Shown: piece by piece, positions 43,568 through 46,677 of the stretch
Layout of the letters: the number at the start of each line of letters is the position of its first letter
Position numbering within the stretch: the first letter of the stretch is position 1
Assembly: GCA_019118275.1 (NCBI GenBank)
Contig: DWZH01000020.1
Location: forward strand, 1 to 60,724
DNA from: Candidatus Brachybacterium merdavium
Lineage (GTDB): Bacteria > Actinomycetota > Actinomycetes > Actinomycetales > Dermabacteraceae
Reading direction: 5' to 3'
DNA: 60,724 nucleotides
The notes under the pieces: generated by a model
Databases searched by the model: none
Told to the model about the DNA's origin: nothing
What the model saw: the letters and a program-made list of their open reading frames with translations, nothing else
Program-made: the position numbers and the translations under genes

Positions 43568-43655
43568 GGAGGGTTGTCAGAGCGGCCGAATGAGGTGGTC
43601 TTGAAAACCATTGTGCGGTAACCCCGTACCGCGGGTTCGAATCCCGCACCCTCCG
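43568..43655 (+). tRNA. tRNA-Ser (anticodon UGA)
   Basis: Acceptor stem GGAGGGT pairs with ACCCTCC. The anticodon stem GTGGT/ACCAT encloses the loop CTTGAAA, with TGA at 43602-43604. A long variable arm (TGTGCGGTAACCCCGTACCG region) and the T-loop GGTTCGAATCC are clear. 88 nt including the discriminator G; CCA is not encoded. A possible -10 TAGGCT lies near 43497. It reads UCA codons. Confidence 0.96.
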
Positions 43656-43663
43656 CGCCCCGG

Positions 43664-44553: not shown

Positions 44554-44709
44554 GACGGTCTCCTCGGGGTCTTCTCGCCGGCCCTCGCCGGTCCTTCGTC
44601 CTGCCCTGTCCCCTCCCGAGTCTTCCCCCGGTGCCCCTCCCGCGTCGAGTCCGCCGGCGCATGGCGTGATCCGCGTTCATCCCCGCGGCGCCGGTGCCCG
44701 AGAATTCCG

Positions 44710-44738
44710 TTGCCGGTCGCAGCCGGTGCCCGTACCGT
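44710..44738 (+). promoter_or_regulatory. Promoter of the erm leader transcript
   Basis: TTGCCG (44710-44715), exactly 17 bp, then TACCGT (44733-44738). The expected transcription start falls on or next to the leader ATG at 44746, so the leader peptide is probably translated from a leaderless mRNA. Confidence 0.65.
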
Positions 44739-44745
44739 TTTCCTC

Positions 44746-44787
44746 ATGGGTATCAACGCCATCTTCATCCGGATCCGCCGCCGCTGA
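44746..44787 (+). CDS. Erm leader peptide (translational attenuator)
   Basis: 13 residues: MGINAIFIRIRRR. The MGI..IF.I pattern matches the ErmC leader MGIFSIFVIST, in which macrolide-bound ribosomes stall at IFVI; here the equivalent is IFIR, followed by Arg-rich RIRRR, which recalls the RLR stalling class. It ends 105 bp before the methyltransferase GTG and its stop codon sits in the loop of a long hairpin. It should act as the drug sensor: stalling would change mRNA folding and expose the erm ribosome site. Stalling itself is inferred from family behaviour. Confidence 0.75.
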   Translation: MGINAIFIRIRRR

Positions 44788-44799
44788 CGGCGCGGATCC
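44771..44799 (+). promoter_or_regulatory. Attenuator hairpin spanning the erm leader stop
   Basis: GGATCCG (44771-44777) pairs with CGGATCC (44793-44799) and CGCCG (44779-44783) with CGGCG (44788-44792). One C is bulged and the tetraloop CTGA contains the stop. It would be opened by a ribosome stalled in the leader. Confidence 0.7.
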
Positions 44800-44832
44800 G
44801 CTTCACCACCCTCTGGACGATCTCGCGCCGCT

Positions 44833-44848
44833 CCCGGCCCCTGCCGGG
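44833..44848 (+). promoter_or_regulatory. Second attenuator hairpin
   Basis: CCCGGC-CCCT-GCCGGG, 6-bp perfect stem between the leader hairpin and the ribosome-site hairpin. Confidence 0.55.
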
Positions 44849-44866
44849 CGGCCCGTCCTGCTGCCC

Positions 44867-44889
44867 GGCTCCGCACCATCCCAGGAGCC
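44867..44889 (+). promoter_or_regulatory. Hairpin sequestering the erm ribosome-binding site
   Basis: GGCTCC (44867-44872) pairs with GGAGCC (44884-44889), which contains the AGGAG Shine-Dalgarno (44883-44887) of the GTG at 44893. This keeps erm translation off until refolding. Confidence 0.65.
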
Positions 44890-44892
44890 CTC

Positions 44893-45651
44893 GTGCCTCG
44901 TCACCATCCCGGAGCCCATGAACTGGGCCAGAACTTCCTCCGCGACCGCCGCACCATCGCCCGCATCGTGGAACTCGCCGCCCGCCGCGACGGCCCGATC
45001 GTCGAATGGGGCCCAGGAGACGGAGCGCTGACCGTCCCCCTGTCCGAGCTCGGCCGACCCCTCGAGGCGATCGAGATCGATCAGCGCGCGGCCTCCGAGC
45101 TCGCCCGCCGGCTCGGCCCGCACGTCACCGTGCGACACGGCGACCTGTTGCGACACAACCCGCCCGCAGGCTCCACCCTGGTCGCCAACCTGCCCTACCA
45201 CCTGACCACTGCGGCGCTGCGTCACCTGCTGACCCGGCGCGGCTGGGAGCGGGCGGTGCTGATGACCCAGTGGGAGGTCGCCCGCAAACGCGCCGCAGTG
45301 GGCGGGGCGACACTGATGACCGCCCAGTGGTGGCCCTGGTTCGAATTCATCCTGGACCGTCGGGTGCCCGCCTCGGCCTTCCGGCCGCGACCCGGCGTGG
45401 ACTCCGGTCTGCTGCTGATCCACCGCCGCGGCGAGCCGCTGCTGTCGCTGCGGGAGCAGCGCGCATACCAGCAGTTCGTCCGCCGCATCTTCACCGGGCG
45501 AGGGCGCGGGCTGCAGGAGATCCTGCAGCGCAGCGGAGAGCTGCCGGCGGGCCGGGCCCGCGCATTCTGCCGCCGCCACGGCTACCGGCCCGCGCAGCTG
45601 CCGCGCACCGTGGACCCGGCGCACTGGGCCGAGGCGTTCCGGCTCCGGTGA
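44893..45651 (+). CDS. Erm-type 23S rRNA (adenine-N6)-methyltransferase
   Basis: 252 residues; SAM-dependent methyltransferase expected to modify A2058 of 23S rRNA and confer macrolide-lincosamide-streptogramin B resistance. The Erm/KsgA hallmarks are in order: LGQNFLRD (11-18), SAM motif I EWGPGDGALT (38-47), acidic motif II Glu61, DLLRH motif III, and the catalytic motif NLPYHLTT (99-106). The start fragment HELGQNFL and short C-terminal domain favour Erm over the housekeeping KsgA, which normally is longer and has NxPYxxxS. Behind a leader-peptide attenuator, which KsgA genes lack. Intrinsic chromosomal gene or old acquisition; GC content is like its neighbours. Confidence 0.9.
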   Translation: MPRHHPGAHELGQNFLRDRRTIARIVELAARRDGPIVEWGPGDGALTVPLSELGRPLEAIEIDQRAASELARRLGPHVTVRHGDLLRHNPPAGSTLVANLPYHLTTAALRHLLTRRGWERAVLMTQWEVARKRAAVGGATLMTAQWWPWFEFILDRRVPASAFRPRPGVDSGLLLIHRRGEPLLSLREQRAYQQFVRRIFTGRGRGLQEILQRSGELPAGRARAFCRRHGYRPAQLPRTVDPAHWAEAFRLR

Positions 45652-45672: not shown

Positions 45673-46677
45673 ATGGCTTCCCTGCATCCCACCCGTCTGC
45701 TGTCCCTGCCCGAGCTCGAACGACTGTGCGCCGATGCCGTCCGCGCGGCAGGCGGATCGCCCGAGCTGGCCTCCTCGCTGGCGACCGCGACCGTCGCCGC
45801 CGAACGTCGCGGCAAGAGCGCGGTCGGGGCCGCCCACCTGGTCGACTACCTCGATGCGCTGCGCACGACACGACTGAACGGCACGGCCCGGCCCCGCCTC
45901 ACACACCGCCGAGCCGCCGCCCTGACCGTCGATGCGGATCGCGGCGCCGCCCAACTGGCCTTCGACCACGCCGCGGACTGCCTCGTCGAGGCGGCCCGCA
46001 GCTGCGGCGTCGCCGTGCTGTCGATCCACGACTCCTTCCCCGGCGGGGAGCTGGGCCACTTCGCCACCCGCCTCGCCGAGCAGGGACTCATCGCCCTGGT
46101 GTGCGGGAACTCTCCGGCGCTGATGGCCGCCTACGACTCCACCGAAGCGGTCACCGGCACCAACCCGCTCGCCTTCGCCCTGCCGCACAGCTCCGGTCCC
46201 CGCGTGTTCGACCAGGCCAGCAGCGCGACCGCCTTCGTGAGCATCCGGCAGGCCGCCGAGCGCGGCGAGCACATCCCGCCCGGCTGGGCACTGGACGCCG
46301 ACGGACAGCCGACCATCGACCCGGCAGCGGCCCTGACCGGGGCGCTGCTGCCCTTCGGCGGCGCCAAGGGCGCGAACATCGCGATGATGATCGAGCTGCT
46401 CGCCGCGATGTCGGGCGGGTCCTTCTCCCTGGACGCCGCCCCCTTCGACACCGGCTCGCGTTCACCGCGCCTGGGACTGTTCATCGCGGCCATCGACCCC
46501 ACCGCCTTCGACCCCGGCTACGAAGAGCGCGCCGAGACGCACCTGCTCCGGCTGCACGAGCGGTTCGGGATCGACGTCGGCCGACGCAGGCCGCCCCGCA
46601 CCCACGTCGAGATCCCCGAGGGCCTGTACCAGGCACTGGCCGCCACCACCGACCACGAGCGAGAGCCGACAGCATGA
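45673..46677 (+). CDS. Ldh2/malate-L-lactate dehydrogenase family oxidoreductase
   Basis: 334 residues of the MDH2/LDH2 superfamily (NADPH-dependent). Recognised by GVAVLSIHDSFPGGELGHFATRLAEQGLIALVCGNSPALMAAYDSTEAVTGTNPLAFALP and the cofactor-site segment LLPFGGAKGANIAMMIELLAAMSGG. Members reduce Delta1-pyrroline- or Delta1-piperideine-2-carboxylate as well as ureidoglycolate or lactate. The coupled proline-racemase-family gene (4-bp ATGA overlap) strongly suggests Delta1-pyrroline-2-carboxylate reduction to L-proline. TAGCCT ends 8 nt before the ATG. Confidence 0.87.
   Translation: MASLHPTRLLSLPELERLCADAVRAAGGSPELASSLATATVAAERRGKSAVGAAHLVDYLDALRTTRLNGTARPRLTHRRAAALTVDADRGAAQLAFDHAADCLVEAARSCGVAVLSIHDSFPGGELGHFATRLAEQGLIALVCGNSPALMAAYDSTEAVTGTNPLAFALPHSSGPRVFDQASSATAFVSIRQAAERGEHIPPGWALDADGQPTIDPAAALTGALLPFGGAKGANIAMMIELLAAMSGGSFSLDAAPFDTGSRSPRLGLFIAAIDPTAFDPGYEERAETHLLRLHERFGIDVGRRRPPRTHVEIPEGLYQALAATTDHEREPTA

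Follow-up and report, generated by a model that had tools for sequence, protein, structure and literature searches.

In the ErmC attenuator of Firmicutes, a ribosome stalled by the drug on a short leader open reading frame (ORF; peptide MGIFSIFVIS) brings about a swap of hairpins that frees the Shine-Dalgarno (SD) sequence of the erm gene (PMC13410324). ErmDL, the leader of ErmD, belongs to another class, termed +X+ or RLR, and stalls when the Leu of its Arg-Leu-Arg occupies the P site (PMC8298421), while for other erm leaders IFVI and IAVV have been named as the motifs at which stalling occurs (PMC11836684; PMC12698558). For actinobacterial genes, translational attenuation has been suggested for erm(X) (PMC3350403), the ErmE mRNA was reported to be translated although it lacks a conventional ribosome-binding site (a title cited in PMC9031893), and transcription of erm(56) was predicted to start 153 bp upstream of the gene, with no leader named in the passages concerned (PMC10470526). 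Leaderless leader ORFs, placed at the 5' end of the mRNA, are found in the ilvB, leu and trp attenuators of actinobacteria; RNA-seq has placed them there in C. diphtheriae (ilvB) and in S. lividans (PMC5784534, PMC8079986). The regions upstream of erm genes from many phyla were surveyed in 2024, and their leader ORFs and hairpins were described as having no universal pattern and possibly independent origins (PMC11264731). Here we analyse the region upstream of an erm gene in a stretch of 60,724 nucleotides from Candidatus Brachybacterium merdavium (contig DWZH01000020.1 of assembly GCA_019118275.1, from here on the window), and we put at about 0.77 the probability that it is an inducible macrolide resistance gene under a leaderless translational attenuator. 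The initial annotation of the locus had described an Erm gene behind a complete attenuator, and this is borne out in that the protein passes the Erm model and a leader, hairpins and a pairing that buries the erm SD are all present.

The gene runs from a GTG at 44893 to a stop at 45651 (44893..45651, forward strand, as are all the features given below up to the gene) and encodes a protein of 252 amino acids of the 23S rRNA (A2058) methyltransferase family. It scored 236.8 bits with the broad NCBIfam Erm model NF000499, which has a cut-off of 212, and the named models that ranked best were Erm(46), Erm(38) and Erm(55), each under its own cut-off; the closest solved structure is that of Erm(38) (7f8a, E 5.2e-78). 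The housekeeping methyltransferase KsgA was considered and rejected as the identity of this gene, because the KsgA model gave 137.9 bits, under its cut-off of 171, and a KsgA candidate on another contig of the genome (G000:C106) matched RrnaAD better, with 168.1 bits compared to 114.3 for the window protein. By these matches the gene encodes an Erm distinct from the KsgA of the genome, and A2058 methylation and resistance to macrolides, lincosamides and streptogramins are predicted at the level of the family. A contig of a Brachybacterium sp. (L033) encodes an Erm that is 100% identical.

Upstream of the gene a -35 element, TTGCCG (44710..44715), is followed after a 17-nt spacer by a -10 element, TACCGT (44733..44738), and 7 nt further on by the ATG at 44746 of a leader ORF, MGINAIFIRIRRR, which has 13 codons and a UGA stop (44746..44787) and no SD ahead of it. 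TTGCC(C/G) with the same spacer is found in four relatives (L005, L007, L008 and L009), one of which, L005, has an identical Erm and a GTG where the window has the leader ATG. TACCGT fits TANNNT and not TATAAT, and what backs it as a -10 element comes from the relatives, in which a TANNNT lies 6-7 nt ahead of the start of a short ORF. A generic E. coli-type scan found no promoter between 44400 and 45800, but as its consensus is E. coli-like this blank result was not counted against the promoter. Actinobacterial RNA polymerase starts at a purine 6-7 nt past a TANNNT -10 element. The leader of the window thus has the layout of a leaderless transcript, namely a -10 element 6-7 nt ahead of the start codon and no SD, and from the conservation of TANNNT-7-ATG, the C at -1 and the lack of a leader SD it is most likely that the mRNA starts on the leader ATG. 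The 13-codon leader of the initial annotation, conserved in the relatives, and its placing of the promoter start on the leader ATG both agree with these observations.

Relatives were collected by a family survey (Erm match at E ≤1e-20 in 16 of 47 genomes, the window genome included), by an order survey (E ≤1e-45, 55 of 396 genomes) and from the named genomes (best 80 of 555 confirmed loci), and plasmid loci were added. Loci from 30 of the 57 matches of the order search went into the main set and one more was L022, already included; the remaining 26, most of them from few related groups, made up a later set that was scored apart. The 139 loci gathered, including 4 not belonging to the erm type studied here, gave 116 distinct upstream regions, 115 of them with at least 340 nt, among which L021/L023, a split gene, and L022, a relative at 34%, count as misses. 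The first scan covered -330 to -60 from the start of the match, with ATG and GTG as the only leader starts allowed. An ORF of 9-30 codons beginning 6-7 nt past a TANNNT was found in 96 of the 115 distinct erm upstream regions, whereas 50 sets of dinucleotide shuffles gave a mean of 1.2 and a maximum of 4. In real DNA the same geometry was found in 1/115 antisense regions, on the two strands inside erm in 0/115 and 0/115, on the two strands downstream in 0/113 and 0/113, and further upstream in 0/111. This confirms that the arrangement is more than chance, although the loci are related and were treated as independent, so that the P values given here overstate. When the Erm proteins were clustered by identity, clusters with at least one member having the geometry were 74/93 at 90%, 53/67 at 80%, 36/45 at 70% and 17/21 at 60%. 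When the promoter was ignored and ORFs were chosen by Arg/Lys-X-Arg/Lys (+X+) near their end, such an ORF was found in 105 of the 115 loci (18.9 in shuffles), and in 89 of these the gap was 6-7 nt (0.06 in shuffles), being 7 nt in 79 and 6 nt in 10, with 16 at the remaining distances between 5 and 12. In the later set, which was also scanned from -380 to -50, the geometry was present in 20/26 with this wider span and in 12/26 with the first; all 26 had a +X+ ORF, and in the loci that lacked the geometry the -10 element lay at 8 nt in five and at 10 nt in one.

A set of 102 leaders with TANNNT 6-8 nt before the start, in which +X+ ORFs were preferred where a locus offered several, was used to describe the leaders themselves. 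Their start codon is ATG in 92 and GTG in 10, C precedes it in 93, and an SD-like word stands ahead of the leader in 3, while 98 have such a word within the last 25 nt ahead of erm, a figure that is partly built in since the script that placed the erm starts gave preference to those preceded by such a word. This script set the erm start too far downstream for L012, L049 and some others, and in L049 the leader fell outside the scanned span as a result.

The +X+ motif is present in 95 of the 102 leaders, and the window leader, with Arg9-Ile10-Arg11 (44770..44778), falls in this class. In 78 of the 88 distinct leaders that have the motif, it begins at the fifth-last residue, and the number of residues that precede it varies from 6 to 20. 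At this fifth position the 102 leaders have Arg in 85 (CGG 30, CGC 19, AGG 19, CGT 17) and Lys in 3, and because Arg is reached via several codons the selection seems to be on the amino acid and not on the RNA alone. By analogy to ErmDL, Arg9-Ile10-Arg11 is the predicted stall site, where Ile10 would occupy the P site and Arg11 the A site of the halted ribosome. Ahead of the motif, two hydrophobic residues directly precede the first basic residue in 37 of the 88 distinct leaders (13.1 expected in residue shuffles, maximum 23), [AS]IF occurs in 9 (null 1.0, maximum 5) and IAV also in 9 (null 0.8, maximum 5), the residue shuffles ignoring kinship in all cases. The MGINAIF of the window is also found in Sciscionella (L085), where its codons show two synonymous differences. 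The initial annotation had held that this leader blends two classes of erm leaders, and the sequence partly supports it, as an Arg-X-Arg and an IF(V/I)- or IAV-like stretch are visible in the sequence and such stretches are enriched in subsets of the leaders, but most leaders carry neither stretch and a function of the blend would be putative. A tentative extension, which we consider possible but less than even in probability, is that the leader is a bipartite sensor, in which an ErmC/ErmA-like hydrophobic stretch (IF(V/I), IAV) would sense cladinose macrolides and the Arg-X-Arg that follows would sense ketolide-like drugs, and that one such ancestral sensor serves most of the actinobacterial Erm branch, a WhiB7-boxed promoter starting the mRNA on the leader start codon and a single 70S ribosome entering at the 5' end to read the leader. 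The enrichment of the hydrophobic pair, of [AS]IF and of IAV ahead of +X+ and the recurrence of MGINAIF are what suggest it, and if it is true, one promoter-leader unit would carry two layers of control, one through a general stress activator and the other through a switch specific to the drug.

Some groups have leaders of their own kind. In Promicromonospora and Myceligenerans (L037, L041, L043, L047, L050, L053 and L067) they end in MIRERSAR, MIRQRSAR or MIRLRSAR, the -10 element of this leader type lies at 8 or 10 nt, and the hairpin 1 sequence is different in the two that were looked at (L037 and L050). Among the order-level loci L144-L166 and L169 there are MGTLNSSAMTAPCFYIRHRSA-like leaders with the -10 element at 7 nt and VSCNFTAMIIRPRTA-like leaders with it at 8 nt. 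Some leaders of Streptomyces (L044, L061, L091 and L106) are long and mostly Ala, Cys and Ser ahead of +X+, for example MSACSCACAACACAACAAMTRIRRP. One Brachybacterium genome (L015, L021 and L023) has more than one erm-like stretch, of which one has an internal stop and is in two pieces that overlap; the other leader of this genome, MCSTAIAVDRGRRF, is of the Micrococcus/Streptomyces type.

The RNA between the leader start and the gene has competing helices, of which 1:2 excludes 2:3. Hairpin 1:2 (44770..44800) has 13 bp with one bulge and the leader UGA in its loop (z -4.58, 0/200 shuffles as stable) and is the consensus hairpin of 16 close relatives; the initial annotation had rightly seen a hairpin enclosing the stop, though it gave its length as 12 bp. 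Arm 2 can instead pair with arm 3 (GGCGCGGAUC with GAUCUCGCGCC, 44788..44830; z -3.19, 0/200), and this helix is predicted for the induced state. Further down, hairpin 4:5 (GCCGGGCGGC/GCUGCCCGGC, 44843..44869), which corresponds to the second hairpin described before, is near-invariant in the 16 close relatives (z -4.55, 0/200) and shares three bases with hairpin 5:6 (44867..44889), in which GGCUCC at 44867-44872 pairs with GGAGCC at 44884-44889 (z -3.46, 1/200) and buries the erm SD, AGGAG (44883..44887), five bases ahead of the GTG. A third hairpin burying AGGAG had been proposed, and 5:6 is that hairpin, but in the minimum free energy (MFE) fold of the whole leader (z -3.21, 1/200) the SD is held instead by an anti-SD GCUCC (44830..44834) paired to GGAGC at 44884-44888, with hairpin 4:5 already formed. 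The predicted unpaired probability of GGAG in the window, which is L006 in the set, is 0.01, so that the SD would be sequestered without drug. The cost of opening the SD is 5.0 kcal/mol, and 4.1 kcal/mol when the first 42 nt are covered by a ribosome, where 2:3 forms; at equilibrium the accessibility of the SD goes from 0.01 to 0.07 on masking of the leader. The initial annotation had neither helix 2:3, nor a WhiB7-type box, nor the wide spread of the arrangement. It is the competition of 2:3 with 1:2 that lets this array be a switch; without 2:3 there would be none. In L005, besides the change of the leader start codon, the stretch from 44746 to 44892 differs from the window in the SD-pairing arm, where GGCUCC is GGCCCC.

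In 92 loci the predicted footprint of the stalled ribosome was masked and the SD opening cost fell from 6.49 to 4.91 kcal/mol, whereas with the intergenic part shuffled the same masking changed it from 5.24 to 5.06 kcal/mol, which is a drop of 1.58 in the real and 0.18 in the shuffled sequences (Wilcoxon P 6e-8, n=92). These dinucleotide shuffles, of the type used for the geometry and the arm pairing as well, are not exactly repeatable for the opening cost as the seed was not fixed. The drop was larger than 0.5 in 59 of the 92 loci, and in the window and the six closest relatives that were scored it was 0.9 (window), 0.8 (L005), 1.1 (L007), 3.7 (L008), 3.9 (L009), 4.7 (L010) and 3.0 (L011), L012 having been excluded because of its misplaced erm start. 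Pairing of arms 1:2 was -17.0 compared to -12.9 in shuffles and that of 2:3 was -17.8 compared to -16.0 (n=92), and locus by locus the best 5% of shuffles was reached in 42/92 for 1:2 and in 16/92 for 2:3. Cognate 2:3 arms paired better than arms taken from other loci (-17.7 vs -16.2, 65 distinct arms, P 1e-6). For leaders ending in RRx-TAG (38 distinct) hairpin 1 was also read in a fixed register, in which the inner six pairs are present in 89-100% and the outer pairs scored 0.561 compared to at most 0.544 in 500 re-dealings that ignore relatedness. The register tried for the window type (TGA, RIRR) was wrong, giving 0.53 compared to 0.66 one step on, and was not used.

The promoter of the window also has an A/T-rich box of the WhiB7 type, GAGAATT (44700..44706), 3 nt ahead of the -35 element, which is a weak form of the GAAAATCCG-TTG of relatives such as L012. 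In the 102 leaders AAA lies within -47 to -40 of the leader start in 54, compared to a mean of 2.3 and a maximum of 8 in single-base shuffles, and is nearly missing elsewhere between -60 and -14; its position would match that of a WhiB7-type box. Four matches of the WhiB type were found in the genome, and one of them (L143), with the AT-hook KRGRGRPRK, is WhiB7-like. Upstream of L143 there is an A-run and, further down, TAGACT with CATG directly after it, somewhat like the erm promoters; autoregulation of WhiB7 is known. WhiB7 control of the window gene would be in line with these observations.

Taken together, the locus would work as follows. A sigma-A-type promoter with a weak WhiB7-type box would give a transcript that begins on the A of the leader ATG, and the ribosome would therefore begin the 13-codon leader at a bare 5' end; it would do so, as the initial annotation had proposed, as a 70S particle, by analogy to leaderless mRNAs in general. 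Without drug the leader would be translated through, hairpin 1:2 and a pairing of the SD (5:6 or GCUCC/GGAGC) would form, and erm would be off. With drug the ribosome would stop at Arg-Ile-Arg and cover arm 1, whereupon helices 2:3 and 4:5 would form, leaving the erm AGGAG exposed and the gene induced; both of these helices are present in the window and the opening cost of the SD falls on masking. Several observations weigh against this. The exact geometry is absent in 19 of the 115 regions, of which L049 has it outside the scanned span, and in 6/26 of the later set. The WhiB7-type box of the window is degenerate because it lacks the AAA. The SD opening cost in the window drops by little, and in 17/92 loci it changed by more than 0.5 in the wrong direction. 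The outer eight bases of arm 2 show no preference for the cognate partner (P 0.74), and covariation analysis of the 16 closest relatives found no compensatory changes in the hairpins, as the stretch is too conserved in them for such pairs to occur. With the leader masked, mean SD accessibility at equilibrium went only from 0.135 to 0.159, up in 27/92 loci and down in 20/92; this near-flat response could be due to co-transcriptional folding or to a wrong footprint or energy model, and it could also mean that the attenuator scheme is incomplete.

The same attenuator could have an mRNA that starts upstream of the leader, so that SD-led or scanning ribosomes reach it. The start is predicted here from the sequence, the generic scan found no promoter, and the tight spacing is not universal, all of which would suit this alternative, but +X+ ORFs chosen without regard to the promoter would then hardly cluster at 6-7 nt from a TANNNT, with C at -1 in nearly all and an SD-like word ahead of so few, and we regard it as unlikely. 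It is also quite unlikely that the short ORF is no sensor at all and that RNA structure and the WhiB7-type promoter suffice, erm being induced transcriptionally as for erm(37), which is singled out as an exception within the WhiB7 regulon (PMC4128351). The AAA box and the WhiB7-like protein of the genome would fit such control, and as arm 1 lies inside the Arg codons, constraint on the RNA alone could preserve some of them; it would not explain why 88/102 leaders have Arg or Lys, through five codons, as their fifth-last residue, why +X+ keeps its distance from the end while the N-terminal length varies, or why MGINAIF recurs in Sciscionella with synonymous differences.

Control of termination by the drug in place of translation, which would resemble the mode common among actinobacterial amino-acid leaders (PMC8079986), was rejected and is very improbable, since the scan found no terminator-like site between leader and erm, its sole hit (44724-44737) overlapping the -10 element and preceding the leader, and the SD is directly paired. 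Just as little weight can be given to a decayed or constitutive attenuator: the small change in opening cost in the window and the U-to-C change by which L005, with its identical Erm, weakens GGCUCC/GGAGCC would be expected of decay, while the leader, the promoter spacing, the hairpins and the SD are intact and conserved. The leaderless translational attenuator remains the explanation that we prefer.

Compared to ErmC, the window leader has a similar N-terminus (MGINAIFI) and shares the leader ORF, with the stalled ribosome and the hairpin swap predicted here, but it has no SD, lies at the predicted 5' end of the mRNA, contains Arg-X-Arg and has more arms (1:2 with the SD pairing against 2:3 with 4:5). 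It has Arg-X-Arg in common with ErmD, but it is predicted to be leaderless and its RIRRR is at the extreme end of the ORF, inside arm 1. It differs from the ilvB, leu and trp leaders in that these sense the supply of amino acids, while the window leader would respond to a drug in the exit tunnel and control translation. Erm(X), Erm(36), Erm(46), Erm(50), Erm(51) and Erm(55) are of the same Erm branch at about 45-52% identity, and the -10/leader geometry of the window is present in all six loci read; their leader sequences differ and these copies are plasmid-borne, whereas the window gene is flanked by a DUF1684 gene and by one of the Ldh_2 family. The 153-bp figure for erm(56) falls within the range of the loci analysed here. 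The likeness to promoters of the WhiB7/WblC regulon is one of sequence, with a degenerate box in the window.

Attenuation of erm genes, leaders with +X+, leader ORFs that are leaderless and the control of erm by WhiB7 have all been known separately, and a leaderless translational attenuator is known in kind. We found no description of its actinobacterial form, or of leaderless erm leaders as an actinobacterial rule, in the open-licence literature of PubMed Central, outside of which lie older journals including reviews of leader peptides, and with the gathering scores of Rfam the window matched a tRNA only and thus no described attenuator family. The pattern is consistent through the actinobacterial branch: a -10 element, 6-7 nt, a start codon, +X+ five from the end, a hairpin around the stop and a buried SD. 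Should these leaders prove leaderless, initiation led by an SD would not be needed for sensing a drug, and the sensor would be the actinobacterial ribosome that loads at a bare 5' end; among the resistance genes concerned are Erm(46), Erm(55), Erm(X) and Erm(50), which are found in clinical or animal isolates. The geometry also provides a simple rule for spotting erm genes that are probably inducible in high-GC genomes.

About 1.2 kb upstream of erm there is a tRNA-Ser gene (anticodon tga, 43568-43656) beside the DUF1684 gene, which is on the opposite strand. Downstream, the gene of the Ldh_2-family dehydrogenase (45673-46677) begins 21 bases past the erm stop and may share a transcript with erm.

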